Below the pieces are notes generated by a model. The model searched no databases. It was not told the origin of the DNA and saw only the letters and a program-made list of their open reading frames with translations. From the NCBI GenBank assembly GCA_030625885.1, contig DAOUPZ010000002.1:1-64000 (forward strand): DNA of 64,000 bases, given 5' to 3'. The DNA is from Clostridia bacterium (GTDB taxonomy: Bacteria; Bacillota; DAOUPZ01). The position numbers and the translations under genes are program-made. Below, piece by piece: positions 2,222-17,767 of this stretch (its first letter is position 1; every line of letters starts with the position of its first letter).

Positions 2222-2932
2222 ATGCAACAGATCATTGAAGTGCAAAATTTATCTTTTGCTTATCCCAATCGTGGACAAGTATTAAAAGATATCTCTTTTT
2301 GTGTACCAAAAGGACAAATAGTTGGGCTAATAGGAGCGAGTGGCTGTGGGAAGAGCACGCTCTGTTTGTGTTTAGCGGGTATTATTCCTCACAGCATCAA
2401 AGGAAAGATGAAAGGGAAAATATGGATTGACAGTAAAGATGTTATGGATTGTACTTTGCCTCAATTGGCACAAAAAATAGGGATGGTTTTTCAAGATCCA
2501 GATACACAACTGTTTTGTCCGACGGTAGAAGACGAATTGGCGTTTGCACCTGAGAATCTATGTATACCGCCGGGAGAAATTCAACAGCGCGTCAGTAAAA
2601 CACTAAAAATGATTGATATAGAACATTTGCGTTATAGAAATCCATCACAGCTTTCTGGAGGGGAGAAGCATTTGGTTGCTTTGGGTGCGGTGCTGACATT
2701 AGACCCGGATATTCTTATTTTTGATGAGGTGATGCCTCGTCTGGATGAGGCAGGAAAAAGCAAGATAGAACAAGTTATCATGCAGTTAAAGTCACAGGGA
2801 AAGACGATTGTGATGGTTGAACATCATCCCGGGTATTTTTTGCATATGATTGACAGGGGGATTGTTCTGGAGAATGGAAAAATCATATATCAAGGATTGG
2901 AAAAAGAGACGATAAGAAACTTCTTCAATTAA
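2222..2932 (+). CDS. ecfA: ECF transporter ATPase (EcfA-type), first copy
   Basis: This 236-residue protein is one of two ABC ATPases that power an energy-coupling-factor importer for vitamins or metals. Visible motifs: Walker A GASGCGKST (about 37-45), Q-loop FQDPDTQLF, signature LSGGE, Walker B ILIFDE and the switch histidine in VEHHPG. The Walker B region continues DEVMPRLDE where DEPTxGLD is usual, a small deviation. The ATG at 2222 is preceded by GGAGG at ideal spacing; an upstream in-frame ATG at 2156 is rejected because a stem-loop covers it. It is followed by the second ATPase and EcfT in one operon. No S component is adjacent; the likely one is at 16640-17227. Confidence 0.93.
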   Translation: MQQIIEVQNLSFAYPNRGQVLKDISFCVPKGQIVGLIGASGCGKSTLCLCLAGIIPHSIKGKMKGKIWIDSKDVMDCTLPQLAQKIGMVFQDPDTQLFCPTVEDELAFAPENLCIPPGEIQQRVSKTLKMIDIEHLRYRNPSQLSGGEKHLVALGAVLTLDPDILIFDEVMPRLDEAGKSKIEQVIMQLKSQGKTIVMVEHHPGYFLHMIDRGIVLENGKIIYQGLEKETIRNFFN

Positions 2933-2974
2933 CTTTTGAGTGGAAAATGTAAGAAGCAAGGAAGGATTATCTAA

Positions 2975-3649
2975 ATGGATTTTTTAGAAGTACAAAATGT
3001 GTATTTTAGATATAAAAACCAACAGGGTTGGGCATTGCAAGATGTCTCGTTACATATTCATAAAGATGAAGCGGTTGGTTTAATCGGTCATAATGGTAGT
3101 GGTAAAACAACATTAACTAAATTATTAATAGGGGCTTTAAAGGTTACGGGGGGAAAAATTTTATTACAAGGCAGAGATATTAATGGACTTTCTTTAGCAC
3201 AGGTTGGCAGGCAAATAGGGTATTTGTTTCAAAATCCAGATAAACAGCTATTTGCAACGACTGTCGAAGGGGAGATCCGTTTTGGTTTGAAAAACTTGGA
3301 TTTACCAGAGACGGAAATTCAACAACGTGTCAATCATTATCTTACTTATTTCAATATGGAACATCATCGTCAAGATTACCCGCTGCATTTAAGCCAGGGA
3401 GAAAAACAACGATTGGTTTTAGCTTCTATCCTGGCAATGCAACCACAATATTTAATTTTTGATGAGCCGACAGTTGGCCTGGACACCTATCATTGTCGGC
3501 AACTGGAAAAGATATTAAAAGATTTAAAGCATCAGCAGGTGGGTATGATTATAAGCAGTCATGATCGGTCTTTTTTAGAGAGAATAGCAGATTGTTTTAT
3601 AACGATGGAAGGTGGGAGAGTCATAGCTGATGCAGGGAATGGAGTGTGA
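2975..3649 (+). CDS. ecfA: ECF transporter ATPase (EcfA-type), second copy
   Basis: This 224-residue ABC ATPase is paired with the preceding one; ECF modules normally use an A-A' heterodimer. Walker A GHNGSGKTT, Q-loop FQNPDKQLF, signature LSQGE, Walker B YLIFDEPTVGLD and the H-loop SHD are all intact, so this subunit has the canonical DEPTxGLD that its partner lacks. It begins 42 bases after the first ATPase, behind AAGGAAGG, and its stop overlaps the start of ecfT in TGATG. This indicates translational coupling. Confidence 0.94.
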   Translation: MDFLEVQNVYFRYKNQQGWALQDVSLHIHKDEAVGLIGHNGSGKTTLTKLLIGALKVTGGKILLQGRDINGLSLAQVGRQIGYLFQNPDKQLFATTVEGEIRFGLKNLDLPETEIQQRVNHYLTYFNMEHHRQDYPLHLSQGEKQRLVLASILAMQPQYLIFDEPTVGLDTYHCRQLEKILKDLKHQQVGMIISSHDRSFLERIADCFITMEGGRVIADAGNGV

Positions 3650-4395
3650 TGGTTTTGAGGGATATATGGGATCCACGCACAAAATTGGTGATGGTGATTT
3701 GTATTTCCACTCTGGCTGTTGTTTATAGTGAACCCATGTTATTATTGGGCTTATTGTTTAGCACTTTTGTGATTTTATTGTATCTAAAGGTTGATTTAAA
3801 GCAGGTGTATTACCGTCTAAAAGGCATGATCGCGATCTTGATTTTATTAATGTTTGTTCAAAGCGTATTTTCACCTGATGGTCAAACCTTAATAGAACTG
3901 AACCATTTACCCCTCTTAACTACTGGTGGGATGATGAAAGGATTAAGTGTTGGAATCAGGATGGGGGTTATTTTAAGTTCAGCACTTATTCTTAGTACGA
4001 TTAATGCTTACGACTTAATGAGGGGACTGGTTCAATGGAAGGTGCCGTATGAAATCGCCTTTATGGTATTTATTTCAGCTAAGTTTCTACCGATATTGGC
4101 TGAAGAAGCAACAGATACTTTTACAGCCATTCAAATGCGAGGCGTTGATTTTGCAAAAATATCATGGAGAGAAAAAGCCCATGTCTATACCTCACTTTTA
4201 GTCCCCATTATATTTGGCACAATGGTTAAAGCGCAGCGGCTGGCTATAACCATGGAAGCGCGGGGAGCACGTGCCTACCCTCGGCGAACCTATATGCGGC
4301 AATTGGTGATGAAGAAACAAGATAAGATTTGGAATGCAATTTTTGTAGGGGGAAGTAGTATGTTGCTTATGTATTATTTTTTTGCTAGCAGGTAG
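3649..4395 (+). CDS. ecfT: ECF transporter transmembrane protein EcfT
   Basis: About 248 residues with four to five hydrophobic segments. The coupling helices carry two Arg-Gly motifs, MRGV and EARGAR, which dock on the ATPases in the EcfT family. The ATG at 3649 overlaps the stop of the upstream gene (TGATG); a GTG at 3646 is possible. The module may serve one dedicated S component or several (group II style); the only S component in the window is at 16640. The final codons and the TAG stop lie within the first heptamer of an intergenic repeat array, so repeat sequence appears to form the C terminus. Confidence 0.93.
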   Translation: MVLRDIWDPRTKLVMVICISTLAVVYSEPMLLLGLLFSTFVILLYLKVDLKQVYYRLKGMIAILILLMFVQSVFSPDGQTLIELNHLPLLTTGGMMKGLSVGIRMGVILSSALILSTINAYDLMRGLVQWKVPYEIAFMVFISAKFLPILAEEATDTFTAIQMRGVDFAKISWREKAHVYTSLLVPIIFGTMVKAQRLAITMEARGARAYPRRTYMRQLVMKKQDKIWNAIFVGGSSMLLMYYFFASR

Positions 4396-4475
4396 CAACC
4401 AGCAGGTAGAAGGTAGGAAAAGATTTGTTAAAAGCTAACTACTAACTACTAGCTCCTAAGAGCTACAGAAGCAAG
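4387..4475. repeat. Heptamer repeat cluster after ecfT
   Basis: Degenerate AGCAGGT heptamers (four units with variants such as AGCAACC and AGAAGGT) are followed by the linker GGAAAAGATTTGTTAAAAG. A second 7-nt series follows, CTAACTA repeated, ending in CTAGCTCC. The array begins inside the last codons of ecfT. Confidence 0.85.
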
Positions 4476-4535
4476 GTATTATTTCATAGTATTGAGAATT
4501 AAGGAATCAAATGTTTTATGGAGAGGAGAGGAATC

Positions 4536-5285
4536 ATGAAAATTTTTTCTGTCTTTGGTATATCGGATTCAGGGAAAACGACAACGGTGGAATGTATCAT
4601 CAAGGAATTGAGAAGACGTCGTTATTCCGTGGGAACCATTAAAGATATTCATTTTCAAGGATTTCAGATGGATCAGGAAGGAACGAATACTTGGCGACAT
4701 CGGGTTGCAGGTTCCCAGTTGGTAACGGCACGTGGATTTTATGAAACCGATATCCTGTTGCAGGAAAAGATGGACATACAGGATTTATTGCCTTTTTATC
4801 ACCATGATTGGTTGATATTGGAAGGCGTTTACGAAACTAACGTGCCTCATATTCTCTGTGCACATGAAACAAAAGATATCGATGAACGGTTAACGGATCT
4901 CGTTTTTGCCATTTCCGGACGTGTTTCTGAAAAAATGACAGCATATAAAGGAATTCCAGTCATCAATGCCTTAAAAGATATAGAAAGATTAGTTGATCTT
5001 CTTGAAGAAAAAGTATTTGATCATCTGCCTTTTTTAGAGCCCGCTTGTTGTGATTTATGTGGGTTAGATTGTCATCGATTGGCAGTTGAAATTTTGCAAG
5101 GAAAACGCAAGCGGGAAGATTGTGTATTGGTAGGTCAGCAGCAGGTAGAAGTTAAGATAGGCGGGCGTTCGTTGAGCATGGTACCATTTGTTCAGGATAT
5201 CGTACGAGGAGCAGTGGAAGGAGTGCTGCGCGAATTGGATGGGTATGAAGAAGAGCAGGATATTGAGATTGTTATTAGGAAGTAA
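4536..5285 (+). CDS. mobB: MobB-like molybdopterin-guanine-dinucleotide GTPase with C-terminal cysteine cluster
   Basis: The 249-residue protein starts with a P-loop (FGISDSGKTTT, residues 6-16) and continues in the MobB pattern (TIKDIHFQGFQMDQEGTNT, then DWLILEGVY). MobB GTPases assist attachment of a nucleotide to molybdopterin. Beyond the usual MobB length it carries a cysteine motif (CCDLCGLDC, then C about 15 residues on; about 168-196) that resembles a small 4Fe-4S domain. The ATG at 4536 is chosen because GAGAGGA precedes it; the ATG at 4518 would place that site inside the gene. The neighbours are the ECF module and many proteins with a molybdoenzyme-like fold, so a role in an unusual cofactor pathway is possible but inferred. 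Confidence 0.85.
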   Translation: MKIFSVFGISDSGKTTTVECIIKELRRRRYSVGTIKDIHFQGFQMDQEGTNTWRHRVAGSQLVTARGFYETDILLQEKMDIQDLLPFYHHDWLILEGVYETNVPHILCAHETKDIDERLTDLVFAISGRVSEKMTAYKGIPVINALKDIERLVDLLEEKVFDHLPFLEPACCDLCGLDCHRLAVEILQGKRKREDCVLVGQQQVEVKIGGRSLSMVPFVQDIVRGAVEGVLRELDGYEEEQDIEIVIRK

Positions 5286-5286
5286 G

Positions 5287-5308
5287 AAAAACGGACGGAG
5301 CCGTTTTT
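5287..5308 (+). terminator. Terminator after mobB
   Basis: An 8-bp stem (AAAAACGG with CCGTTTTT) and short loop begin just after the stop codon and end in a T-run. Confidence 0.75.
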
Positions 5309-5422
5309 CGGCAGGTAGCGATCAGCAGGTAGCAGGTAGGAAAAGCAAAAGATATTTTAGCTATCAGTTATCAGCTATCAGCATAAAGGGAAAGATTAAG
5401 GGTCAGCTAAAGGCTATATAAC
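5309..5422. repeat. Heptamer repeat cluster after mobB
   Basis: AGCAGGT-type heptamers (5310-5341) are joined by GGAAAAGCAAAAGATATT to a different heptamer series (ATCAGTT, ATCAGCT, ATCAGC; about 5361-5385), then AAAGGGAAAGATTAAGGGT. It occupies the whole gap before the phosphoesterase gene. Confidence 0.85.
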
Positions 5423-5455
5423 GTAGATATTCCTCGGAGAGAGGTGAGATGGTGT

Positions 5456-6763
5456 ATGTGTGAAAAGAATTTAATAAGAGAGCGTGTAGAATTTATTGTA
5501 ATTTTTGTTTTGTTGATGGTGTTGGTGCTTCCTTTTTTATCGACTCCAGCCATGGCAACGGTGGTGGAGGAGAATCCGGATCAAATTACTTTATCATGGA
5601 CGGATGATCCTAAAACATCTCAGACAATTGTTTGGCGAACCAGTCATGATGTTACAAAAGGAACCGTTCAGTATGTACCAGCGGTTGATTTTAAGGGGAG
5701 CTTTTCTAAAGCCCGACAAAAAGAGGCAATATTGACAGAATTAAATGAGAATAATAATCATAATCATTTTGAGGCGACGATCAATCAGCTTATGCCTGAA
5801 ACGGAGTATATTTACCGAGTAGGTACAAAAGGTGCGTGGAGTAAGCCTCTGTCTTTTACAACAGCAAGTGAGACAGATACTTTTTCTTTTCTCTATATGG
5901 GTGATGTTCAGGCGGGCTATGAACAATGGGGACGAATGCTCCATGAAGCTTATGCAGCACATCCCAACTTGAAGTTTTCTCTGATGGGAGGCGATTTAGT
6001 AGATAATGGGGATGATTCGGGAGAGTGGGCACAATTTTTAAGCCAGACTGCAGGTGTGTTTGATTGTATGCCCTTGATGCCAACTTTAGGTAATCATGAT
6101 GATAGCAGAAATACCTATTACTTAAAACATTTTGCATTGCCTCAAAACGGTCCATCTCATCTTAAAGAGCGGTTTTATTCATTTAACTATGGCAATGCTC
6201 ACTTTGTTATTTTAGATAGTAATCGGATGGGAAACGAAGGGTTGCTTTATGAAGAAGCCAGTCAATGGTTGAAAAAAGATTTATCGGATAGTCATCAAAG
6301 ATGGAAATTTGTGATGTTTCATCATCCCCCTTATCCTGCTCATGCTGGGAAAGAACATGATGCATTACAAGAAAAGTGGGTGCCGATTTTAGAGGAAAAT
6401 GATGTCGATATGGTATTTGTCGGGCACCAGCATGTGTATATGCGTACATATCCACTGTATGGGGGAAAGATTCAACAGCAGCCTCAGGATGGCGTGGTTT
6501 ATATAATGGGAAATGCAGGAACAAAACATTATAATTATGATGATTTTGATTATATGGCTGCTGTTAGTGCTGGGGCCACTTATCAGGTAATTGATATAAC
6601 AGAAGATGCATTAACATTGACAGCTAAAGAGGCTAGAGGCAAAGTGGTTGATACGTATATCATCGATAAAGGGAATACGATGGATGGTTTATCGTGGTAT
6701 GATCAGCATTTACTTCTTATGATTAACTTATTGGGAATGATCCAGGGTGCATTGAATATATAG
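5456..6763 (+). CDS. Secreted purple-acid-phosphatase-like metallophosphoesterase
   Basis: About 435 residues: an N-terminal signal or membrane segment (IVIFVLLMVLVLPFL), a fibronectin-III-like N-terminal domain as in plant-type purple acid phosphatases (about 45-135; ITLSWTDDPKTSQTIVWRTS), and a calcineurin-like catalytic domain. The metal-binding motifs are complete: GDVQAG (about 148), GGDLVDNG (about 178), GNHDD (about 213), HHPPY (about 288) and GHQHVY (about 322). It should hydrolyse a phosphoester outside the membrane; the substrate is unknown. It may feed the nearby ECF importer by dephosphorylating a ligand, which is inference. ATG 5456 is preferred; GTG 5444 in the same frame is possible because GAGAGAGG lies just ahead. 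Confidence 0.88.
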   Translation: MCEKNLIRERVEFIVIFVLLMVLVLPFLSTPAMATVVEENPDQITLSWTDDPKTSQTIVWRTSHDVTKGTVQYVPAVDFKGSFSKARQKEAILTELNENNNHNHFEATINQLMPETEYIYRVGTKGAWSKPLSFTTASETDTFSFLYMGDVQAGYEQWGRMLHEAYAAHPNLKFSLMGGDLVDNGDDSGEWAQFLSQTAGVFDCMPLMPTLGNHDDSRNTYYLKHFALPQNGPSHLKERFYSFNYGNAHFVILDSNRMGNEGLLYEEASQWLKKDLSDSHQRWKFVMFHHPPYPAHAGKEHDALQEKWVPILEENDVDMVFVGHQHVYMRTYPLYGGKIQQQPQDGVVYIMGNAGTKHYNYDDFDYMAAVSAGATYQVIDITEDALTLTAKEARGKVVDTYIIDKGNTMDGLSWYDQHLLLMINLLGMIQGALNI

Positions 6764-6799
6764 AATGATGAGATGAAAGAGCGAAAGGAAGGAAAGCGG

Positions 6800-7693
6800 A
6801 TGATAAAGCACAATAAGTTTAATAGGTGTTTCTTGACAATGCTGGCTATTTCTTTGCTGCTTATGGTGTTTGGGTCGGGTTGCGGTACTGAACAGACAGG
6901 ACAACCTGTTGCGATTCAAGATGAACCCCAGGCGGTTATAACGGTGAGCGGTTCAGGGGTCGATGGCATACATGAATTTAAGATGGCAGAAATGAAAGCG
7001 TGGGAAGAGGGTCAATTTGAACATATTTATTCTACAATCAATAATTGGCCAAGTCCTAAAAAATATGCAGCACGCGGGATTAAGCTTCAAAGAATCTTAG
7101 AGGCAGCGGGTTTAAAGGCGGAGGCTAAAAGTTTTACCTTTAAGTCAGATGATGGATTTGAGTGGTCATTTACGCGTGAGCAGCTTTTAGAAACACCCCA
7201 GTTTTATTTTCCCGGGGTCAAGGAGCGGGATGGTCAGAATTCGGAACCCGTAGAGCCGGTGATTGCTTACGAATATTTAGAAGGTTCTGATGATCTCAGC
7301 AAAGCTGTAGCGGGTGATCCCTGTTTGATTATTGGTCAATCTAATGTTAATGAACAAACAAATATTACTTTTGTGATAAATGTATCAGAGATTGTGGTGT
7401 TAAATGATAATCCGGGACAATGGAAGATGGCAGCGTCCTATCCATTACCGGGGCAGATTGCACAGGGAGAGACAGTGAAATTACAACATCAGGAGATGGG
7501 CAAGGTGAAAATGTACTATACGTTGGATGGATCAACGCCAACGGAAGAAAGTGCACTTTATAACCCCAGTACCTATCAACCTGAGTTGAGCAAACCCATT
7601 CCCATTGAGAAAGATACGGTCATTAAAGTATTGGTTAAGGGGTTTGGTAAAGCAGATAGTGATATTGAAACATTTGAGTATACAGTAGAGTAG
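6800..7693 (+). CDS. Lipoprotein with sulfite-oxidase-fold-like domain and chitobiase-C-like domain
   Basis: 297 residues. A lipoprotein signal ends in lipobox FGSGC (cysteine near residue 29), so it is tethered to the outer face of the membrane. The first domain (about 45-200) follows the pattern of the local family (GVDGIHEFKMAEM, YAARGIKLQRILEAAGL, FKSDDGFEWSFTREQLL, NVSEIVVL); I relate it to the Oxidored_molyb fold, without a cysteine at the molybdenum-ligand position. The second (about 210-297; VKMYYTLDGSTPTEESALYN) is a CHB_HEX_C/Fn3-associated domain common in surface proteins. ATG 6800 follows GGAAGGAAAG; the earlier ATG 6773 lacks a good site. It heads a run of related lipoprotein genes. 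Confidence 0.85.
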   Translation: MIKHNKFNRCFLTMLAISLLLMVFGSGCGTEQTGQPVAIQDEPQAVITVSGSGVDGIHEFKMAEMKAWEEGQFEHIYSTINNWPSPKKYAARGIKLQRILEAAGLKAEAKSFTFKSDDGFEWSFTREQLLETPQFYFPGVKERDGQNSEPVEPVIAYEYLEGSDDLSKAVAGDPCLIIGQSNVNEQTNITFVINVSEIVVLNDNPGQWKMAASYPLPGQIAQGETVKLQHQEMGKVKMYYTLDGSTPTEESALYNPSTYQPELSKPIPIEKDTVIKVLVKGFGKADSDIETFEYTVE

Positions 7694-7703: not shown

Positions 7704-8828
7704 ATGATGCAAAAGAGAAACGGGTTAAGTTTTTTACTTGTTGGATTACTCATTTTATCTTGCGTGTTTGCAGTGGGTTGCGGTTCACAAGAGGCGATAA
7801 CCAGTGGGAACCCGGCGTATGAAAATCAGATCATTAGCATTGAAGGGGCGGTAGAAGGTAATAAAGAAATAACGGTAGCAGAATTGCGAAAATTACCTCA
7901 AAAACAATTTGATGCTAGTTATAAGCGGACAACGGGTAAGATTGATAAATTTAAAGTTTCCGGGCCCTTACTAAACGATGTGCTTAATAAGCTGGAAATC
8001 AATCTTGAGGATTACAAGGGGATTGGTGTCACAGGCCGGGATGGTTACTACTGTTTGATTTCCCCGGAAATTTTGGCTAATCGGGAAATCGTTTTAGGAA
8101 TGGTGATTGATGGGCAGCCAGAGTTGGAAGAAGTTGAGCGCCCCGCACGGTTATGTGTACAGGGGGAGTTTGGCCCTTACTGGGTAAAGATGGTGCAGAC
8201 GATTTCTTTGTATAAAGAAATACCTAAAAAAGATATTACCTCTGTTTGGATATTTAAGAATTTAGCTGACGGGATTGAACCTTATGGATATGAATATTAT
8301 GGAAGCAAGGATGATTCGATTGAATTAGGACAGGTATTTGCGCGATTAGATGATGTCAATAACAAAGCTTTTTTTACTATGAAATCAGTGGATGGTTTTG
8401 TAAAGAATGAAGCTTTAAATATGGTTAATGAACGTTACTTTATAAAAGTTGAAGGCAAAGATGCACCAACAAATATTTCGCCATATATTAAACTAGGGAT
8501 GAACGTCAAGCATATTGCCTGGGTTTCTACCAACGCAGATGCCATGGTTTTCCCCAAAGAGATGGAAAAGATTTTAGAAACCAAAGAAATTAATGGTATG
8601 AACGGTGTGACCATTAAAGATACACTTCGGGAAGTACGTGTTAAGAATGTAGACGATAAAGAATTTGAGATTATTTCTGTAAAGGGTCAAAAATTAAAGG
8701 TTAAGGGTGAAGACTTAACTAAGGGGATTATTGTTCCTAATGAGGGTAAAACCTATCAAGTGATTTGGGAAAAAGAAACAGGATTAGCAAACATAGATAA
8801 CTTGTTGCGGATTCGCAGTGTGCAATAG
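7704..8828 (+). CDS. Lipoprotein with Oxidored_molyb-like domain
   Basis: 374 residues with lipobox AVGC after a hydrophobic signal. The N-terminal domain (about 45-185) is the best match in the cluster to the sulfite-oxidase fold: ITVAELRKLPQ, VSGPLLNDVLNKL, VTGRDGYYCLISPE, then RLCVQGEFGPYWVKMVQTI, which mirrors the family strand RLVVPGxYGxxWVKxV. The equivalent of the molybdenum-binding cysteine is absent, so I expect a ligand-binding rather than redox role. Residues 190-374 look like a second, diverged half of unknown fold. It lies 10 bases after the upstream lipoprotein gene, with AGAGGGGGAG before the ATG, so it is cotranscribed. Confidence 0.8.
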   Translation: MMQKRNGLSFLLVGLLILSCVFAVGCGSQEAITSGNPAYENQIISIEGAVEGNKEITVAELRKLPQKQFDASYKRTTGKIDKFKVSGPLLNDVLNKLEINLEDYKGIGVTGRDGYYCLISPEILANREIVLGMVIDGQPELEEVERPARLCVQGEFGPYWVKMVQTISLYKEIPKKDITSVWIFKNLADGIEPYGYEYYGSKDDSIELGQVFARLDDVNNKAFFTMKSVDGFVKNEALNMVNERYFIKVEGKDAPTNISPYIKLGMNVKHIAWVSTNADAMVFPKEMEKILETKEINGMNGVTIKDTLREVRVKNVDDKEFEIISVKGQKLKVKGEDLTKGIIVPNEGKTYQVIWEKETGLANIDNLLRIRSVQ

Positions 8829-8849
8829 AAAATGAAAGGAGCATGGTTC

Positions 8850-9941
8850 ATGCAGATGAGAGATCAGTGGCAAAGACTAGGTGTATACTTTCTTATTGTA
8901 CTGTTAACAATGAGTTTGCTTACAGGGTGTTTGAATCATTCCCAAACCGAACAATCGAAAAGTGTCGATCAACAGCAGTCTGTGCAGCATGAAGTGCAGG
9001 CTCCGCAATTTAATGAGTCTGAAGCATTGCAAGAACCTGAAGCACCAAACAAACCTGCTGTAAATAAACAACAATCGGATGTAGAGGCTATTGAAAAAGA
9101 AGATCCAATACGAGAAGATTCCGATGATGATCAAGTAGAAATAACGGCTAAAGAAGAGACGGTTTCTAAAGAACCCATTGTTTTAACCCTTAAAGGGAAT
9201 GGACTTAAACAGTCAGGGTCATTTACTTTAACAGGTCTTAAGGATATGAAAGGCGGATATGCAGAGCAGGTCTATTCTGCTGTTAATAACTGGCCCTCAA
9301 AAAAGTTTTTCGTGGGTAAAGGGATTAAAATAACCTACTTATTAGATAAATTGGGTTTAAAGGATGATGCAAAAACCATTATTGTGAAGTCTGAAGATGG
9401 CTATAAAGCTACTTTTACAAAAGAACAGTTGTTGGGGCAGCGTTACTATTACCCTAATATAGTGGATGAGAGCAAGGATGGACAACAAATCGTACCTGCC
9501 ATTATTGCTTGGGAAAACAGGGAATCAAAGGATCTAAGTAAAGCACAGGGTGGCAATCTAATGTTGCTTTTAGGACAGAAGAGCCTGCATGATGTGACGA
9601 CAAATGGATTTGCAAAACAAGTTAATTTGATTGAGGTCTTAACATCTGAGTCCGGACGTTGGGAAGATGTCACTGTGAGTTCGGAACCTGGAGCCGTTGA
9701 AGCAGGGACGGAAATCAGTTTGAATCATTCTGAAATGGATCGAGTTAAAATTTATTATACGGTAGGTGGCAGCATACCCACTTATGATAGTCCGGTGTAC
9801 AACCCGAGTACCAGTTATTTTCAACCGCAGTTAACTCAACCTGTTACAGTTGATGAAGCCATTATTATTAAAGCCTTTGCCAGCGGATTTGGAAAGCAAG
9901 ATAGTGAAATGACGACTTTTCAGTATGAAGTGAAAAAGTAA
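8850..9941 (+). CDS. Lipoprotein with sulfite-oxidase-fold-like and chitobiase-C-like domains
   Basis: 363 residues, paralogous to the protein at 6800-7693. Signal with lipobox LLTGC, a Gln/Glu-rich disordered spacer (about 30-110), the family domain (about 112-265; QSGSFTLTGLKDM, FVGKGIKITYLLDKLGL, VKSEDGYKATFTKEQLL), and a CHB_HEX_C-like domain (about 275-363; VKIYYTVGGSIPTYDSPVYN). The long acidic spacer probably lifts the binding domain through the cell wall. ATG 8850 is chosen because AAAGGAG sits 8 bases before it; ATG 8832 would overlap that site. It is part of the lipoprotein operon. Confidence 0.83.
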   Translation: MQMRDQWQRLGVYFLIVLLTMSLLTGCLNHSQTEQSKSVDQQQSVQHEVQAPQFNESEALQEPEAPNKPAVNKQQSDVEAIEKEDPIREDSDDDQVEITAKEETVSKEPIVLTLKGNGLKQSGSFTLTGLKDMKGGYAEQVYSAVNNWPSKKFFVGKGIKITYLLDKLGLKDDAKTIIVKSEDGYKATFTKEQLLGQRYYYPNIVDESKDGQQIVPAIIAWENRESKDLSKAQGGNLMLLLGQKSLHDVTTNGFAKQVNLIEVLTSESGRWEDVTVSSEPGAVEAGTEISLNHSEMDRVKIYYTVGGSIPTYDSPVYNPSTSYFQPQLTQPVTVDEAIIIKAFASGFGKQDSEMTTFQYEVKK

Positions 9942-9968: not shown

Positions 9969-10640
9969 ATGAGGCGAAGTATTGCTATATTAAATATAAT
10001 GATTATCTTAATAGGTGTTTTAATATTAGGAGGCTGTCAGAATAACCAGACCGTAAGCGGTGAACAGACACAAAATCAGGGGAAAGAAGAAAAGATCATA
10101 GATACGACCATTCAGGTAGAAGAGGAAGTGGCGATTCATGATATTTTATCCAATGATGCAGAGATTGAAAATATCACGGGGGATGTTTTTGAAGCGTCGT
10201 TGGAGGAAAAGTTTCCTGCTTTGAAAAAAGTTTTTAAAATGGTTCAAAAAGAAGGATGTGATTATGCTTTTCTCGTCAGCCCTGTTGGGTATCAGGGATC
10301 GATTGACATGATGATTGTTGTTAATGAAGAAAAGAAGATGACGGTTGGGATAAAGATATTACATCATGATGAAACACCGGAATATGCGGAATATTTAACC
10401 CAAGCATGGTTTACGGATCGTTTTAAGGATAAGGCGGTTAATCCGTATTTAGAGCGGGTCATTCTGGAAGCGGAAAAACCTAATGAAATTGTACAAATTA
10501 CGGGTTCAACGGTAAGCAGTCAGGCGGCGATCAATGGTGTGAATGCGGCGATGGGTGCATTTAGAAAAATTGTATTGGGTGAAGAAACAGAAGGGGTACC
10601 CCTCAATGTATTGACACATATTACAGCGAGTGAAAACTAG
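9969..10640 (+). CDS. FMN-binding domain lipoprotein
   Basis: 223 residues with lipobox LGGC near residue 23 and an FMN_bind domain like those of RnfG, NqrC and NosR. The C-terminal GSTVSSQAAINGVNAAM (about 177-193) corresponds to the flavinylation signature, in which FMN is normally attached through a phosphoester to the threonine. VSPVGYQGSIDMMIVVNEEK fits the family core. It is 27 bases after the preceding lipoprotein gene and closes that operon. An extracytoplasmic flavoprotein beside molybdoenzyme-fold proteins suggests an external redox chain, but no ApbE flavin transferase is in the window and the electron partner is unknown. Confidence 0.83.
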   Translation: MRRSIAILNIMIILIGVLILGGCQNNQTVSGEQTQNQGKEEKIIDTTIQVEEEVAIHDILSNDAEIENITGDVFEASLEEKFPALKKVFKMVQKEGCDYAFLVSPVGYQGSIDMMIVVNEEKKMTVGIKILHHDETPEYAEYLTQAWFTDRFKDKAVNPYLERVILEAEKPNEIVQITGSTVSSQAAINGVNAAMGAFRKIVLGEETEGVPLNVLTHITASEN

Positions 10641-10725: not shown

Positions 10726-13700
10726 TTGAGAAAACAGTTTTTTATAAAAGGGATAATATCTTGTGTGATATTACTTATGATGATGTTAATTGCAAATTTT
10801 GGACAGGCTTTAGCGGTAGATGAAACACTTTCAATCATTGGTGACGGGGTTACAACACCCATTGAGTTTACACGTGGTGAACTGGAAGCCATGCAAGGGG
10901 ATATGGTTCAATACATCTATTCCTCTCAAAACAATTTTCCAACTAAAAAGTTAATTGCAGCAAAAGGGATTCCTTTGGCTGTTCTTTTAGAAAAAGCAGG
11001 GATTAAACCCGAAGCACAACTGATTACCATTAAAGCTTTTGATGGATATAATAAGACATTTACACGACAGGAATTGCTGGAAGATACTCGATATACGTTT
11101 CCGAATATCATGGCAAACGCTACAAACGATGCCCAACCCGTAGAGACCATTATTTCTCTAATGGGTGGAAGAGGGGACGAAGGTTTTGAGGGGATGAGAA
11201 CGGAAAATCTTAAGCTGTGTATGGGTCAGCGGGCTATGACGGAGCAGACGAATCCCTGGTTTGTTAAAAATGCAGCCATTATTGAAGTTTCAAACGAGAT
11301 GCCTGAGAAATGTGAAGCACCTGAAATAGAATTAGATACACAGACATTAGTTGCTGGTCCGGGACTGAAGTTTACACATCTAGATTTTGATAAGGTTAAG
11401 ATCTATTATACAACAGATAGTTCTAAACCGGACTTTAACAGTGGGATGTTTAATATCAGCACCACGAACTGGCAACCCCAGTTAAATGTACCCATTTTAC
11501 TAGATGAAGACAGGATATTCAAAGCCATTGCGATTGAACCGGGAAAGCGCAATAGTGAAGTCGTTAGTATAACCTGTAAGAAGGAACAGGATGAAATCGT
11601 TTTAATATCGCCTTCAATTGAAAAAACCATCAAGCCGGGCAATTGTATTTCCATCATGGGAACAGGACAAGATAAGGAACAGCGGACGATTAATGTTATC
11701 GATTCAAAGGAGAAGATGATTTATACACAAGAATTAACCATAAATGATGGTCAGTATGGTACAAAATTTACTTTGGATCATGAGGCGGCTGAAGGTTACT
11801 ATACCATTGAAATTAAAGAGGAAAGTCTAGAAACGTTGTATACCTATCAATTTGAGGTTAAAATACCCAAAATCACTTTAACAACACCTGTAGAATTACA
11901 GAAATTTATGCCAGAAGATCAGGTGAATATCAGTGGAACAGTCGAGAATATTTCAAGCGTTATCATTACGGTCACAGATCCTGATCAGAAGCAGGTTTAC
12001 GCTAAAGAAGTAGATACAAGCGACAGCCAGTTTACAACCAGCTTTGTTTTACCACTGGATTCCGTGGGAGGTGACTATACCATAAGCATCGGCGGTGAGT
12101 ATATAAACACGCCGTACAGGTACCTATTTAAGGTAAAAAAAGCAATGCTTGCGTCACCCACGGAAGAACAAATATTCAAGGCTGGCGATTTACTGGAAAT
12201 TAGGGGTACAGCAGCACAAAATGTATCCAATCTTACAGCAGCGGTTAAAGATAAAAATGGTGAATCTTTACTCACACCACAGGTTAGTATCGATCATGGT
12301 GTATTTACAGCCAGTCTAGTCGTAGATAATAATTTAGAAGCAGGGGAATATACTGTTGAAATTGACGGTGAAGCGTTGGATGAACCCTGTGTTAGAAAAA
12401 TCAAGATTGTGGGGACAGTAGAGCTGTTATCACCTCAAGCCAATCAAATTTTTAAAACAGGAGAAAACGTTCAAATCAGCGGGATTGCAAAAAATCTTTC
12501 CGCCATTCAGGTAGAGGTTCGAAATAAAAACCAGGAAATAATTCATTCGAAAGAGCTAATCATAAGTGATGAAGCATTTGCAACGCATTTTGAACTTGAA
12601 GCAGATGACACAGTTGGAAAATACAACATAAAAATATCGGGTGAAGGGCTTCAATTACCCTATGTACAAGAATTTTCCGTTGAAACCGATGAGGGTAATT
12701 CAGGCGAGGAACCGGATGAAGAGATTGTTTTAACCGTTGATGGAGCAGTTGAAGAAAATGTTGATTTCACCCTTCGTGATTTGAGAAATATGGGAAAAGG
12801 GAAAATAGAGGATATTTATTATGCATTGAATAGTTATGGAACCCAGAGAGAGTATGAAGCCATAGGTGTTTCACTTATGTATTTACTGGAGAAAAAAGTA
12901 GAGTTGGAATCTGACGCGAAAAGTATTACGATTATTGCAAAAGATGATGGTTATAGTCGCAGCTTTAATATTAAGGATTTAAAGGGGCGTTACAGAGATC
13001 ATACGGTGCCGATACTATCATGGAAGAGTCGCTGCCGTTCCTATAATGTATTGAAAGAGAAGTGGATGCCGTGGGAGGATGATTGGGAAGAAGATGTATT
13101 GAAGCCGATTATTGGACAAAGAAGTAATAAGCAGGCCATAGAGATTACAGAGCCTGCAGACAAGCAGGTTTTCAATCCTGGGCAGGACGTGACCATAACA
13201 GGTTATTTACCTGAGTCCAATAATGCGTACTTTGTAGATGATGTGAGTGAAATCACGGTTTCTACCAAAAGTGTTGAGTATGGTTCTGGATCTTCCGGGA
13301 AATATGATGAGCCAAAGACGATTACTGTGATGGTTAGTCCTAAAGATGGAGCATCTGTTTTTGAGGAGGAAATTGAATCGAGTAATGGCGAATTTTCAGT
13401 TAGCTTTACGCTGGAAAAAGATGCAGTGTCAGGTGAATATGAGATAACCATTAGTGAAGAAAAATCGGCAAAAATATGTAGCCGTAAGTTTCAAGTTGAT
13501 GGGGAGTATGAGGAAGCAGAAGAGGTTTTAGATGAAGAAGGCATCAGTATATACGGTGATGTTGAGGAAAATAGTTACTTTGCTTTGAGAGATTTAAAAA
13601 ATATGAGTAAAGGAAAAGTAAACGATACATATGATGTTGTATGTGAAGACGGCATTCACAAAGAATATGAGGGTTATGGCATATCCATACCGTATTTATT

Positions 13701-14616
13701 ACAAAAGGAAATAGATTTGGATAAAAACGCAAAAAGCATTACCATTATTGGTAATGAAGCCGCTCATAAAGCATTTAATATTGAAGACTTAAAGGGAATT
13801 TATGAAGATCATACGATACCAGTACTTTCCTGGAAATATCGTTATCGTCAGTATAACGAAGAAAAAAATAAGTGGTCGGATTGGGAAGAATGGGAGGAAG
13901 AAGGCCTTAAATTTATAGTGAGTCAGAGAAAAGGCTGTTCTGAAGAAGTCAATGCGTTGTATATTGTAAATGGCGTTACGGATATTTCGGTATCCGATCA
14001 AAGCGTGGAATATGGTTTTGAATCGATGGAAAAATTGGATCTGCCAGTTGCAATCGATCATTTCACTGATTTAAAAGATCATTGGGCAAGAGAAGAAATA
14101 AGGATTTTAATAGAAAAAGGGATTGTGAATGGGGTCAGTGATACTGAATTTGCGCCAGATGCGTCCATTACGCGGGCACAATTTACAAAACTGTTAGTTA
14201 AAGTCCTTGATTTAAATGTTAATGAGATAGAGAACGTATCTTTTGAAGACGTATCTTCAGATGCCTGGTATTATAAATTCGTCAGTGCTGCGGTACAAGC
14301 AGGTTTGATTAACGGTTATAATGTGGAACGCTTTGGTCCGGATGATCTGATTACTCGTGAGCAAATGGCTGTTATTGTTGCTCGGGCAATGAAGATAAAA
14401 GATATGGATGAAGAACAGATTGAAGGTGACAGGGCGACATTTAAAGACCAATCAGAAATTGCAGCCGGCTTTGAAAATGAAATTGCGCTTGCATTAGATA
14501 AAGGGGTTATAAAAGGCGTGAGTCAAGATACATTTGCGCCAAAAGAAAATGCAACTCGGGCGCAAGGTGCGGTTATGATTTTGCGGTTTTATAATCTATT
14601 GAATGAGGCAGGTTAA
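10726..14616 (+). CDS. Giant SLH surface protein with three sulfite-oxidase-fold-like domains and Ig-like repeats
   Basis: 1296 residues from a TTG start behind GGGGGG. Order: signal peptide (1-30); family domain (about 33-190); chitobiase-C-like domain (about 200-285); four Ig-like repeats (about 293-660, each with a KPGD/KAGD-like turn and a GxYxIxI strand); a shorter family domain (about 665-800); a hybrid Ig-like region (about 803-930); a third family domain (about 938-1095); three SLH domains (about 1105-1296). The first 290 residues are closely paralogous to the next gene. Near residue 832 a C-terminal strand of the family domain (AYFVDDVSEITVSTKSVEYG) is interrupted from its domain by half an Ig repeat, so the module order looks scrambled. 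It is cell-wall anchored; ligand unknown. Confidence 0.9.
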   Translation: MRKQFFIKGIISCVILLMMMLIANFGQALAVDETLSIIGDGVTTPIEFTRGELEAMQGDMVQYIYSSQNNFPTKKLIAAKGIPLAVLLEKAGIKPEAQLITIKAFDGYNKTFTRQELLEDTRYTFPNIMANATNDAQPVETIISLMGGRGDEGFEGMRTENLKLCMGQRAMTEQTNPWFVKNAAIIEVSNEMPEKCEAPEIELDTQTLVAGPGLKFTHLDFDKVKIYYTTDSSKPDFNSGMFNISTTNWQPQLNVPILLDEDRIFKAIAIEPGKRNSEVVSITCKKEQDEIVLISPSIEKTIKPGNCISIMGTGQDKEQRTINVIDSKEKMIYTQELTINDGQYGTKFTLDHEAAEGYYTIEIKEESLETLYTYQFEVKIPKITLTTPVELQKFMPEDQVNISGTVENISSVIITVTDPDQKQVYAKEVDTSDSQFTTSFVLPLDSVGGDYTISIGGEYINTPYRYLFKVKKAMLASPTEEQIFKAGDLLEIRGTAAQNVSNLTAAVKDKNGESLLTPQVSIDHGVFTASLVVDNNLEAGEYTVEIDGEALDEPCVRKIKIVGTVELLSPQANQIFKTGENVQISGIAKNLSAIQVEVRNKNQEIIHSKELIISDEAFATHFELEADDTVGKYNIKISGEGLQLPYVQEFSVETDEGNSGEEPDEEIVLTVDGAVEENVDFTLRDLRNMGKGKIEDIYYALNSYGTQREYEAIGVSLMYLLEKKVELESDAKSITIIAKDDGYSRSFNIKDLKGRYRDHTVPILSWKSRCRSYNVLKEKWMPWEDDWEEDVLKPIIGQRSNKQAIEITEPADKQVFNPGQDVTITGYLPESNNAYFVDDVSEITVSTKSVEYGSGSSGKYDEPKTITVMVSPKDGASVFEEEIESSNGEFSVSFTLEKDAVSGEYEITISEEKSAKICSRKFQVDGEYEEAEEVLDEEGISIYGDVEENSYFALRDLKNMSKGKVNDTYDVVCEDGIHKEYEGYGISIPYLLQKEIDLDKNAKSITIIGNEAAHKAFNIEDLKGIYEDHTIPVLSWKYRYRQYNEEKNKWSDWEEWEEEGLKFIVSQRKGCSEEVNALYIVNGVTDISVSDQSVEYGFESMEKLDLPVAIDHFTDLKDHWAREEIRILIEKGIVNGVSDTEFAPDASITRAQFTKLLVKVLDLNVNEIENVSFEDVSSDAWYYKFVSAAVQAGLINGYNVERFGPDDLITREQMAVIVARAMKIKDMDEEQIEGDRATFKDQSEIAAGFENEIALALDKGVIKGVSQDTFAPKENATRAQGAVMILRFYNLLNEAG

Positions 14617-14619
14617 AAG

Positions 14620-14637
14620 AAACGACACATATCGTTT
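14620..14637 (+). terminator. Weak stem-loop after the giant SLH gene
   Basis: A 6-bp stem (AAACGA with TCGTTT) and T-run start three bases after the stop codon. The stem is short, so efficiency is doubtful. Confidence 0.45.
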
Positions 14638-14735
14638 TTGAGTGGAAAGTGGAAAGGCCGCTCCCTTTGGTCGCTGAAAGTGGAAAGACAAAAAGATAAG
14701 ATAAAAGCTGAAAGAATAAAAATCTTTATTGCAAA
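14638..14735. repeat. AGTGGAA heptamer cluster with hairpin interruption
   Basis: AGTGGAA heptamers are interrupted by CCGCTCCCTTTGGTCGC, a short hairpin-like motif seen in other clusters, then resume (AAGTGGAAAG) and pass into the A/G-rich linker (AAAAAGATAAGATAAAAG). Confidence 0.75.
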
Positions 14736-14773
14736 TCATATATTATTAAATATAAGTCAAAGAGGTGTTTATA

Positions 14774-16210
14774 ATGAGAAAAGGATTTATGTATAAAGGA
14801 ATGGTTGTTTGCATGATTTTATTAGCTGTTATCATAGTGACTGATATCAACCAGGCATTGGCAGCGGAGGATGAAACACTTTCAATTATGGGAGACGGTG
14901 TTACAACGCCAATTGAGTTTACGCGGGAAGCGTTAGAGGTGATGCAGGATGATTATGTACAATATATTTATTCATCTCAAAACAACTATCCTACTAAAAA
15001 ATTGATTGCGGCGGAAGGGATTCCGTTATCCATTCTTTTAGAAAAGGCAGGGATTAAACCTGAAGCGCAATTGATTACAGTGAAAGCGTTTGATGGTTAT
15101 GCGATTACTTTTACACGGCAGGAAATACTGGAAGATAATCGTTACTATTTTCCGGGTATGATGCAAGATGATTCACAGGGGGCAGAACCTGTAAAAACGA
15201 TTATCGCATTAAAGCTGGGAGATGGGAAACAGGGGATTTCCGGGTTACAGGAGGATTACTTTAAACTATGTATGGGGCAACGGGCGGTTACCGAACAAAC
15301 GAACCCCTGGTTTGTGAAAAACACCGCTCTGATTGAAGTTTCAACAAAAGCACCGGAAAAGTGGGATTCGGTAACAACAAAAACATCGCAGGGGACCATT
15401 ACGGCTGGGACAAATATTACCCTTGATCTTCCTGATTTTAATAAAGCTAAAATTTATTATACGCTGGATGGCAGTCAGCCTACTGTTAATAGTCCAATGT
15501 TTAATATTAGTACGACATATTGGCAACCTGAATTGAATGTGCCCATTGTATTAGAAAGAGATACAACTATAAAGGCTGTTGCGATTGGGGCAGGGAAATT
15601 AGATAGTGCTATCGTATCTTTTGAATACACGATAGCAAAAGGTGATCGTGAAAGGGGTCAATTTAGTGATCTGCAGGGATTTGAATGGGCTCAAACAGCG
15701 ATTGAAGATTTAGCGGATAAACAGATTATTAACGGTATGGCCAAAGGTCAGTTTGCACCTGAAGGCATTTTAACGCGAGCACAATTTGCTAAAATTACGG
15801 TAGGTGCACTTTACGGAGAACCAGATGCTATTGAAAGCAGTCGATTTTCGGATATTGATGGAAACGCATGGTATGGTAAATATGTAGAAAAGGCAGCACA
15901 AGAAGGACTGATTAACGGTTTTGATGATGGCCGCTTTGGGCCTGATCAGAGTCTTACGAATGAACAGATGATTGCGATTGTTATCAGAGCGATGGGGAAA
16001 AATGATGCAGCATCAAACTTGAATGGCGCTGGTCTTAGCACCAGTATCAGAATTGATACGGTTTCCAATTGGGCTAAAGGTTATGTTGAATTAGCCGAAC
16101 AAGAAGGATTGTTGGAAACACAGCATTTAGAAGGGCCGCTTATAGCCAATGAAGCAGCGACACGGGCAGAAGCAGCTGAGATCGTTTATCGTATGCTTGG
16201 AAAGAGATAA
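14774..16210 (+). CDS. SLH surface protein with sulfite-oxidase-fold-like and chitobiase-C-like domains
   Basis: 478 residues: signal peptide (1-27), family domain (about 30-190; GVTTPIEFTREALEVM, AAEGIPLSILLEKAGI, VKAFDGYAITFTRQEIL, LCMGQRAVTEQTNPWFVKN), chitobiase-C-like domain (about 200-290; KIYYTLDGSQPTVNSPMFN) and three SLH domains (about 298-478). It is a compact paralogue of the N terminus of the upstream giant protein; long stretches match almost residue for residue, so the pair arose by tandem duplication. ATG 14774 follows AGAGGTG at 6 bases; the GTG at 14765 is rejected. The third SLH domain is more diverged than the other two. Confidence 0.9.
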   Translation: MRKGFMYKGMVVCMILLAVIIVTDINQALAAEDETLSIMGDGVTTPIEFTREALEVMQDDYVQYIYSSQNNYPTKKLIAAEGIPLSILLEKAGIKPEAQLITVKAFDGYAITFTRQEILEDNRYYFPGMMQDDSQGAEPVKTIIALKLGDGKQGISGLQEDYFKLCMGQRAVTEQTNPWFVKNTALIEVSTKAPEKWDSVTTKTSQGTITAGTNITLDLPDFNKAKIYYTLDGSQPTVNSPMFNISTTYWQPELNVPIVLERDTTIKAVAIGAGKLDSAIVSFEYTIAKGDRERGQFSDLQGFEWAQTAIEDLADKQIINGMAKGQFAPEGILTRAQFAKITVGALYGEPDAIESSRFSDIDGNAWYGKYVEKAAQEGLINGFDDGRFGPDQSLTNEQMIAIVIRAMGKNDAASNLNGAGLSTSIRIDTVSNWAKGYVELAEQEGLLETQHLEGPLIANEAATRAEAAEIVYRMLGKR

Positions 16211-16235
16211 GCAAAACAACCTTTGGTTGTTTTGC
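16211..16235 (+). terminator. Terminator after the SLH gene
   Basis: A perfect 11-bp stem (GCAAAACAACC with GGTTGTTTTGC) and 3-nt loop start at the stop codon. The T-rich descending arm helps termination. Confidence 0.7.
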
Positions 16236-16236
16236 G

Positions 16237-16313
16237 GCAGGTAGCAGGTAGCAGGTAGCAGGTAGCAGGTAGCAGGTAGCAGGTAGCAGGTAGCAGGTAG
16301 CAGGTAGCAGGTA
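16237..16313. repeat. Eleven perfect tandem copies of GCAGGTA
   Basis: Bases 16237-16313 are eleven uninterrupted copies of the 7-mer GCAGGTA, the longest pure array in the window, followed by GGAAAAGATTAAAGGAT. The length and purity suggest recent slippage expansion; copy number may vary between strains. Confidence 0.97.
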
Positions 16314-16476
16314 GGAAAAGATTAAAGGATAGTTATCGGTTATCAGTTATCAGCTTAAAGGAAAAGATAAATAACAGATAGGAAAAGATTAAAAGACGAG
16401 GAACGAGGAAAGATCGCAACCTGTAGTTGCTGAACGAGGAACGAAAAAGATAAAGAATAGAGGAATGATAAAAGCC
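16314..16476. repeat. Mixed heptamer clusters before the S-component gene
   Basis: Three modules in a row: an ATCAGTT-type series (TTATCGG, TTATCAG, TTATCAG), an ACAGATAGG remnant, and a GAACGAG series interrupted by CGCAACCTGTAGTTGC. Each is followed by a GGAAAAGATTAAAAGA-like linker. The gap from 16211 to 16639 holds no gene. Confidence 0.8.
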
Positions 16477-16479
16477 TAA

Positions 16480-16532
16480 TGCAATAATGGGGACATTCCG
16501 GGGGGTACGAGCGGTGTGTCCCCATTATTGCA
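16480..16532. repeat. REP-like palindrome with GGGGACA arms
   Basis: A perfect 16-bp inverted repeat (16480-16495 and 16517-16532; arm TGCAATAATGGGGACA) encloses a G-rich 21-nt loop. Related partial copies lie at about 22180, 42861 and 56101. GGGGACA-ended palindromes resemble REP elements mobilised by RAYT transposases, but no such gene is in the window. Confidence 0.8.
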
Positions 16533-16639
16533 TGAAGAGAATAGTAGGAAATATCAAGATTGCTTTCTGAGAGCTATCAGTATCAGCTATTAGCTTTTGG
16601 CTTTTAGCAATTTAAATGTATCAAGAAAGGGAGATGAAC

Positions 16640-17227
16640 ATGAGTCTCTGGCAGAGGTTTATTAATCGTTTTTCCATGTTTGATCTGGTTATGATTGCTA
16701 TGACGGCGGCGTTGGGTGTGGCTACCAAGCCGATTATTGTTCCTCTGGCACATTTGATTACGGGACCGCTTTTTATTCCCGGCGGGGCGTTAGCGGGTGG
16801 CTTTTATATGATGTGGCTGGTGATCGGGGCTGCTATAACGGGTAAGCGGGGTACGGCTACACTAGTGGGTTTGGTGCAGGGATTCATGGTATTAGTCACG
16901 GGGTTTTATGGTACGCATGGGGTATTGAGTATATTGACGTATTCATTTCCCGGTTTGGCGGTGGACTTAGGATTACTATTTTATAGGAGCTATGTTAAAA
17001 GCGTGAGCGGTATGTTTATAGCAGGTATATTGGCTAATGTTGCGGGAACCATTTCTACCAACTGGGTATTTTTTCGCCTTCCATTTATTCCACTCATGTT
17101 ATCTTTGGCGGTAGCATCTTTTTCAGGTGGATTAGGGGGCATACTGGCCTATAAAATTGTTCAGCAATTAAGCAGATTTTTACCAACTGAAGGGGAAGAA
17201 AGTCAAGAAATGGATATGGAGGAATAG
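16640..17227 (+). CDS. Probable ECF transporter S component (substrate-binding membrane protein)
   Basis: 195 residues with about six hydrophobic helices and the Gly/Ala-rich pattern of ECF S components (LVMIAMTAALGVATKPI near the N terminus, then PGGALAGGFYMMWLVIGAAI). The N-terminal helix with alanines fits the EcfT-docking helix. The sequence looks closest to the hydroxymethylpyrimidine/thiamine or cobalt-type S families, but the substrate cannot be fixed. No ATPase adjoins it; the nearest A-A'-T module is 12 kb upstream on the same strand, with only the surface-protein genes, mobB and the phosphoesterase gene between. ATG 16640 follows AAAGGGAG at 6 bases. The next gene encodes a membrane-anchored single domain of the local family, 18 bases away, so the two are probably cotranscribed. 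Confidence 0.75.
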   Translation: MSLWQRFINRFSMFDLVMIAMTAALGVATKPIIVPLAHLITGPLFIPGGALAGGFYMMWLVIGAAITGKRGTATLVGLVQGFMVLVTGFYGTHGVLSILTYSFPGLAVDLGLLFYRSYVKSVSGMFIAGILANVAGTISTNWVFFRLPFIPLMLSLAVASFSGGLGGILAYKIVQQLSRFLPTEGEESQEMDMEE

Positions 17228-17245
17228 CAGGAAGGGTGTGAGCAT

Positions 17246-17767
17246 ATGACGGAAATCTTAACACAAAGAAAACAGTATAAACGAGTGGGTATGATTATGG
17301 TGTTTTTGGCTGTCGTCATTGGCGTATTTGCTTTTTTAAATTTGCAGGGAAAAAAACCTGTGGAAGGTGTGCTGGAAATTAAAGCTGAAGAATTGGTCAT
17401 AGCAACACTGGATATCGATGATGTTAAACAATTACCTGCCGTAAAAAAGAAGGTGGTAATTAATTCAACCCAGGGATTAAGTAAGCACGAGTTTACGTGT
17501 ACACCACTTGCTGTCGTTTTTAATAAGATAGATCCAGAAATCGTTAATCAATACCAGAAAGTGATTACAAAAGGGGTAGACAATTATACCTCTGTTGTGG
17601 AAATGGAAGAGGTTTTGGAAGAGGATAATGTATATCTTGTTTATGAAGATCAGGGGAGTCTGCTTAAAATGAAATCGGGTAAAGAAGGTGCCATGCAGGT
17701 TATTGTTTTGTATGATGAGTTTGGGCAACGGTTTACGAACTTTTTGGTAGAGCTTGAGTTAGAGTAA
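17246..17767 (+). CDS. Membrane-anchored single-domain member of the sulfite-oxidase-fold-like family
   Basis: 173 residues: an N-terminal transmembrane anchor (about 15-33; VGMIMVFLAVVIGVFAFL), then one extracellular domain (about 45-173) with family landmarks (DIDDVKQLP, FTCTPLAVVFNKI, ITKGVDNYTSVVEMEEVL, FTNFLVELEL). It is the smallest member and sits next to the S-component gene, which suggests it passes ligand to the transporter or docks on it (inference). Start ATG 17246 behind GGAAGGGTG. One cysteine (FTCTP) is present near the position of the molybdenum-ligating cysteine of sulfite oxidases, but I cannot align it with certainty. Confidence 0.7.
   Translation: MTEILTQRKQYKRVGMIMVFLAVVIGVFAFLNLQGKKPVEGVLEIKAEELVIATLDIDDVKQLPAVKKKVVINSTQGLSKHEFTCTPLAVVFNKIDPEIVNQYQKVITKGVDNYTSVVEMEEVLEEDNVYLVYEDQGSLLKMKSGKEGAMQVIVLYDEFGQRFTNFLVELELE

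Follow-up and report, generated by a model that had tools for sequence, protein, structure and literature searches.

The stretch analysed here (the window) comprises the first 64,000 nucleotides of contig DAOUPZ010000002.1 (C38) of the Clostridia bacterium assembly GCA_030625885.1, and the system in question is a candidate energy-coupling factor (ECF) uptake system accompanied by surface proteins with sulfite-oxidase-fold (Sox) domains. The window begins at a contig end, which falls within the last units of a Sox-repeat gene. Domains were called using Pfam, NCBIfam and hidden Markov models (HMMs) built for the Sox domain. These searches found every part named in the original prediction, which had been made from the sequence letters: the ECF core (2156-4395), MobB, the phosphoesterase, the FMN-binding protein, the Sox proteins and the S component (16616-17227). 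The genes are listed below; SLH denotes S-layer homology.

2-976, + strand, 3' end of a Sox-repeat surface protein (Sox HMM match)
1058-2116, + strand, SLH (S-layer anchored) protein, no Sox domain detected (Pfam SLH, three copies)
2156-2932, + strand, EcfA ATPase (Pfam ABC_tran, 2.8e-28)
2975-3649, + strand, EcfA' ATPase (Pfam ABC_tran, 1.1e-32)
3646-4395, + strand, EcfT transmembrane coupling protein of the CbiQ family (Pfam CbiQ, 3e-28)
4518-5285, + strand, MobB GTPase with a C-terminal iron-sulfur (FeS)-type cysteine motif, CxxCxxxC...C (Pfam MobB, 2.3e-19)
5444-6763, + strand, predicted secreted purple-acid-type metallophosphoesterase (Pfam Metallophos, 5.4e-19; Pur_ac_phosph_N, 7.7e-19)
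6773-7693, + strand, lipoprotein with Sox and Fn3_assoc/CHB_HEX domains (Pfam, Sox HMM, alignment)
7704-8828, + strand, lipoprotein with a PF00174 Sox domain and C-terminal repeats of Sox-like appearance (PF00174, 6.2e-8)
8832-9941, + strand, lipoprotein with Sox and Fn3_assoc/CHB_HEX domains (Pfam, Sox HMM, alignment)
9969-10640, + strand, RnfG-like FMN-binding lipoprotein (Pfam FMN_bind, 4.9e-13)
10726-14616, + strand, large SLH protein with three Sox domains, Fn3_assoc and Ig-like domains (Pfam, Sox HMM)
14765-16210, + strand, SLH protein with Sox and Fn3_assoc/CHB_HEX domains (Pfam, Sox HMM, alignment)
16616-17227, + strand, ECF S component, ABC_cobalt PF09819/YkoE-like (Pfam PF09819, 1e-10)
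17246-17767, + strand, membrane-anchored minimal Sox domain adjoining the S component (profile matches to PruR and sulfite dehydrogenases)

The best NCBIfam match of the MobB protein was the MobB/FeS model (1.5e-48, nearly full length, under the equivalog cut-off), and the GDxxD, GNHD and GHxH motifs of the phosphoesterase were all intact in its sequence. Fn3_assoc/CHB_HEX domains sit after several of the Sox domains. No oxyanion-binding protein or MFS_MOT1 permease of the Mod, Wtp, Tup or MOT1 type was present in the Pfam results for the window genes.

The components expected of an ECF transporter were found, with two ABC ATPases and an EcfT/CbiQ protein present and a six-helix S fold predicted. 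The S component carries a conserved PGGxLAGGFYMM motif in the alignment, and its AlphaFold model (predicted local distance difference test score, pLDDT, 90) had YkoE (5edl) as the best fold match in Foldseek, at a template modelling (TM) score of 0.68-0.70, with ThiT and RibU also matched. A profile of the S component gave no match to PDB sequences, so that the likeness to YkoE comes from the fold search.

The original prediction counted at least nine Sox domains, and this number was borne out by HMM matches in the proteins at 2-976, 6773, 7704, 8832, 10726 (three copies), 14765 and 17246. The sulfite-oxidase fold that it proposed was also recovered. PF00174 scored above its cut-off on the 7704-8828 lipoprotein (E=6e-8) and the 10726-14616 protein (27.5 bits against a cut-off of 24), and the AlphaFold model of the former (pLDDT 84) matched sulfite oxidases and dehydrogenases in Foldseek and, as a single domain, PruR pterin-binding proteins, with a TM score of 0.76 by target length and 2.8 Å over ~140 columns against PruR 7kp2. 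The profile of the 17246-type anchor matched PruR proteins (7kom/7kos) and sulfite dehydrogenases among PDB sequences (E 4e-7 to 2e-4), the top match being PruR at 4e-7. PruR itself has the SUOX fold without the Mo-ligating cysteine, and its ligands are reduced pterins (PMC13259868). Loss of this cysteine, which had been claimed for the window domains as a whole, holds for most copies, with YSTINNWP, YSAVNNWP, YSSQNN, INSTQG and YKRTTG among the residues at the inferred Mo-ligand position; one of the three copies in the 10726-14616 protein has a cysteine nearby (VVCEDG). The second, dimerisation domain of the sulfite oxidase family was not detected in the window Sox proteins. No catalytic role is expected for the window Sox domains.

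Sox/SLH genes are also located apart from ECF genes in the same genome. On another of its contigs (C26, locus L012), a c-di-GMP-I riboswitch lies upstream of a 298 aa Sox-domain protein (5525-7071), an arrangement that recalls the link between pterin and cyclic di-GMP (c-di-GMP) in PruR.

To determine whether Sox and ECF genes recur together, relatives were gathered by similarity to the S component alone, giving 44 loci from Bacillota, Cloacimonadota, Dehalococcoidia and one archaeon, many of them on short contigs. A Sox gene was present within 9 kb of the S component in 42 of the 44, along with EcfA (35 loci), EcfT (34), MobB (23), an identified phosphoesterase (23) and a kinase (15), and the EcfA/EcfA/EcfT trio is present in most. 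As the relatives were chosen by the S component only, yet almost all carry Sox genes, the linkage is beyond chance. The absence of such recurrence, or a clearly different fold, had been named as grounds for abandoning the original prediction; neither came about, the linkage extending across phyla and the fold being that of sulfite oxidase and PruR.

The relatives show a compact operon in the order Sox lipoprotein, S component, Sox-phosphodiesterase, Sox anchor, EcfA, EcfA, EcfT, MobB and kinase, as in the one-contig genome G129. The usual first gene is the counterpart of the 7704-8828 lipoprotein, and a counterpart of the 17246-type anchor adjoins the ECF genes in most loci. The operon protein of ~500 aa has a type I phosphodiesterase/nucleotide pyrophosphatase-like domain, in several cases with an N-terminal Sox domain, and its metal and nucleophile positions are invariant or near-invariant (D308, T353, D441, D481, H482 and H493 in L064 numbering). 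The kinase is APH/Bud32-like, with invariant K, E and D...N residues and a DFE-type motif. In the Cloacimonadota copies a TonB-receptor plug protein is located between EcfA and EcfT. Neighbouring genes include a TupABC-like set downstream (TupA/TupB and a WtpC-like ATPase, L035) and NuoE/NuoF/Mo-oxidoreductase (formate dehydrogenase) genes flanking the copies in L039, L043 and L055. Relatives of the FMN-binding lipoprotein adjoin Sox/ECF genes in L031, L061, L063, L092 and L094, in L063 together with ApbE and a NapH-like protein.

Several loci depart from this arrangement. MotA/ExbB-like and DUF2149 genes lie between the Sox lipoprotein and the S component in L028 (9042-9987), L029, L030 and L065, the last of which also has a TrmO_N-FmdE fusion protein adjoining its ECF genes (12533-13357). 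A divergent subtype is seen in L072 (6358-7539) and L073 (9279-10313), where the S component and a Sox domain are joined in one protein and fused ECF ATPases lie close by.

The regulatory context of the relatives was examined using RNA family models. RF01055, the riboswitch for molybdenum or tungsten cofactor (Moco/Tuco), scored above the gathering threshold as the operon leader in 23 fully flanked loci and was also found in three short-flank loci. Its position in each of the 23 is on the coding strand and ahead of either the operon's first gene or the S gene; the distance to the S gene is 29-46 nt in L044, L051, L058 and L060. In the genome of the window, RF01055 is present, likewise above the gathering threshold, on a second contig (C34:4508-4626), directly upstream of a giant Sox-repeat gene (C34:1-4364, minus strand) that runs off the contig end. 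Immediately before this gene come the kinase and a molybdate transporter of the MOT1 type. The last units on C34 and the first units of the window are tandem Sox repeats that are 94% identical, and on this sequence similarity the C34 gene probably continues into the window, with 2-976 as its 3' end.

Other riboswitches were seen alongside these. A second RF01055 cluster in the same genome (C10:70000-88000, L014; 4143-14218) places the riboswitch before a FecCD/BtuC-type ABC importer (permease, ATPase and Peripla_BP_2) and Sox/SLH genes, and may encode a second importer for the Mo/W cofactor, built on another kind of transporter. In L012 (7788-9963), RF01055 immediately precedes the gene for a methyl-accepting chemotaxis protein bearing a dCache sensor; chemotaxis may here be tuned to Moco or the tungsten cofactor (Wco). 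The window itself has a Guanidine-I riboswitch at 37003-37102 (RF00442, 66.6 bits).

The presence or absence of cofactor synthesis genes was then compared with that of Mo/W enzymes. In the 44 genomes bearing the S component, MoaC was absent in 30 and MoeA in 28, both being absent in 28, and 28 of the 30 MoaC-negative carriers keep a strong Mo/W-pterin enzyme (PF00384 or AFOR_C). A single in-frame TGA occurs in many of the PF00384 matches, which is the pattern of formate dehydrogenases that use selenocysteine. In an evenly drawn phylum sample of 399 genomes, the S component was associated with aldehyde:ferredoxin oxidoreductase (AFOR): among MoaC-negative genomes it was present in 15/34 with AFOR versus 3/101 without (p=3e-8), and among AFOR genomes in 15/34 without MoaC versus 25/190 with MoaC (p=8e-5). 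The complete operon and AFOR, without MoaC, are found in G129 and G346, each a genome in one contig; in G055, which is placed in the genus of G129, MoaC is present and the S component absent.

MobA-like genes, scored by E-value because TIGR02665 reaches its cut-off in one control genome only, were present in 14/15 of the MoaC-negative carriers with a PF00384 enzyme versus 1/15 of those without (p=3e-6), and several adjoin a formate dehydrogenase gene. This tracking of PF00384 enzymes by MobA suggests that the imported form is nucleotide-free and that GMP is added inside the cell where needed. As MoeA is also missing, the metal would most simply arrive with the pterin. MoaE (PF02391) was considered as a marker of the de novo pathway and dropped, as it misses most of the 44 genomes, MoaC-positive Bacillota included; its near-absence from most MoaC-positive Bacillota suggests a divergent molybdopterin synthase subunit.

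Taken together, the RF01055 leader, the loss of MoaC and MoeA with retention of Mo/W enzymes, the fold match to PruR and the TupABC, MOT1 and formate dehydrogenase neighbours suggest, with a probability of roughly 0.85, that the locus encodes a salvage or uptake system for the Mo/W-pyranopterin cofactor (Moco/Wco or a trimmed derivative), the transport, the binding and the exact form of the substrate being deduced from these lines. The proposal in the original prediction that the genes capture, trim by dephosphorylation and import a cofactor such as a pterin is thus favoured, with the Sox-phosphodiesterase and kinase of the relatives and the TonB receptors of the Gram-negative versions adding to the riboswitch and gene-loss patterns. 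With moderate confidence, the pattern extends to a broader claim, that in several phyla there are anaerobes auxotrophic for the cofactor in its complete, metal-loaded form, which they import via the ECF/Sox system, with an outer-membrane TonB receptor in Cloacimonadota.

In the proposed mechanism, the cysteine-less Sox domains on lipoproteins, S-layer proteins and the membrane anchor would capture cofactor released by other cells. An extracellular phosphoesterase, the Sox-phosphodiesterase in compact operons and the purple-acid-type phosphatase in the window, would strip the nucleotide and perhaps the terminal phosphate, and the trimmed product would be imported by the YkoE-like S component with EcfA-EcfA-EcfT. 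Inside the cell the small-molecule kinase would restore the phosphate, and MobB, plus MobA where nucleotide cofactors are used, would regenerate the form needed by aldehyde:ferredoxin oxidoreductases and formate dehydrogenases. RF01055 is placed in most relatives so that it could turn the operon off when cofactor is plentiful. The FMN-binding protein, with ApbE and the NapH-like protein where these are present, may maintain the cofactor or its thiols in a reduced state on the outside, although this is a guess.

Several observations weigh against salvage of the cofactor, at the level of both the window and its relatives. RF01055 was not found inside the window, even as a sub-threshold match, and a search for an exact overlap between C34 and C38 found none, the join being drawn from the 94% identical tandem units. 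In the window the genes are spread across 15 kb and include SLH genes, in contrast to the compact operon, and the organism keeps MoaA, MoaC, MogA and two MoeA genes alongside ten AFOR_C matches; with its own synthesis genes, the system would there only supplement synthesis. PruR binds small pterins in a site thought too small for Moco (PMC13259868), and with MoeA absent, metal insertion has no explanation unless the imported form already carries the metal. Among the MoaC-negative AFOR genomes, 19/34 are without a strong S component; weaker matches exist in five of the 19, some of them to longer open reading frames that may be fused S-Sox proteins as in L072 and L073. Conversely, G075 and G077 have the S component with no Mo/W enzyme detected. 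Many of the genomes are incomplete metagenome-assembled genomes in which single gene absences are unsafe, and the statistics ignore phylogeny.

The nature of the substrate can also be read differently. Given that PruR-type domains bind simple pterins (PMC13259868), that the Sox fold matches PruR and that genes able to act after import (MobB, the kinase and MobA) are present, the system might import a smaller pterin or pathway intermediate, such as cyclic pyranopterin monophosphate (cPMP) or metal-free molybdopterin, which is completed in the cell. We regard this as unlikely, as the metal insertase MoeA is lacking from 28/30 MoaC-negative genomes and metal-free molybdopterin would be hard for them to use. 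The same genomes, lacking both MoaC and MoeA, would be unable to use bare metal, which makes it very improbable that molybdate, tungstate or a metal chelate is taken up by a transporter co-regulated with cofactor genes, even though riboswitch control, the TupABC/MOT1 neighbours and the membership of EcfT in the cobalt-transport CbiQ family would fit. In addition, dedicated oxyanion transporters adjoin some copies, the YkoE-like S component resembles organic-vitamin carriers, and the TonB receptors and phosphodiesterases fit a large organic substrate.

That the S component belongs to PF09819 with YkoE as its best match would also suit an importer of a thiamine precursor, folate or another unrelated vitamin of the YkoE group; this is barely credible, since the operon leader is RF01055 rather than a thiamine riboswitch, none of which was found in the loci searched, and the Mo/W linkage is strong. 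In another reading the locus is a device for redox chemistry or signalling at the surface, its Sox domains being either degenerate enzymes or sensors of the PruR kind, with the ECF genes present only incidentally. This reading would account for the FMN-binding protein, ApbE and NapH-like genes in some clusters and for the Sox/SLH genes found away from ECF genes. It is highly implausible, however, because the S component, Sox anchor and EcfAAT are kept together across phyla, the transporter core is nearly constant where the contig allows, and no DcpA-type (GGDEF/EAL) partner gene, such as lies beside pruR, was found by Pfam among the annotated window neighbours.

Outside proteins the Mo/W cofactor is unstable, and the general view is that each cell using it makes its own. 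If the complete cofactor is indeed imported by the ECF/Sox system, this system would be the first known Moco importer, would explain bacteria with 'orphan' molybdoenzymes and would add the Mo/W cofactor to the nutrients exchanged within anaerobic communities. No earlier report of a bacterial Moco importer was found in open-access papers; in the same literature the ECF transporter type and the SUOX/PruR domain are already known, while no description was found of their combination, its control by RF01055 or a salvage role. In one genome survey, 305 bacteria had Moco enzymes but an incomplete or missing pathway (nitrogenase was absent from 292 and present in 13), an open puzzle for which the only explanations offered were undiscovered synthesis genes or proteins free of metal (PMC6147048). 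How Moco gets across membranes is a question raised by a 2022 study of dietary Moco in worms (PMC9793310). Both questions become directly testable with a riboswitch-controlled importer in one-contig genomes without synthesis genes.

Among known systems, the locus resembles the ECF vitamin importer YkoEDC (YkoE 5edl) in its two EcfA proteins, EcfT, PF09819 S component and predicted S fold; the locus and its relatives add surface Sox domains, a phosphodiesterase, MobB and a kinase, with the riboswitch and partner genes pointing to a Mo/W pterin. The Sox domains resemble PruR (7kos, 7kp2, 7kom and 7rkb) as extracytoplasmic SUOX-fold units of ~130-170 aa without the Mo-ligating cysteine (PMC13259868), but whereas PruR acts with DcpA in c-di-GMP signalling, the Sox domains go with an ECF transporter, frequently as multiple units on S-layer proteins or in fusion with a phosphodiesterase. 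Sulfite oxidase and dehydrogenase enzymes (PF00174) share the fold, and their conserved Mo-ligating cysteine is missing in most window copies. The RF01055 regulon has the same aptamer family over Mo/W cofactor genes, and the parts consulted of the paper describing it list genes for molybdate transport, cofactor synthesis and Moco-using enzymes and describe no ECF/Sox importer (PMC2408646). ModABC, WtpABC, TupABC and MOT1 likewise serve Mo/W supply; these carry oxyanions, whereas the ECF/Sox system belongs to another type of transporter and is found where genes for cofactor synthesis are lacking.

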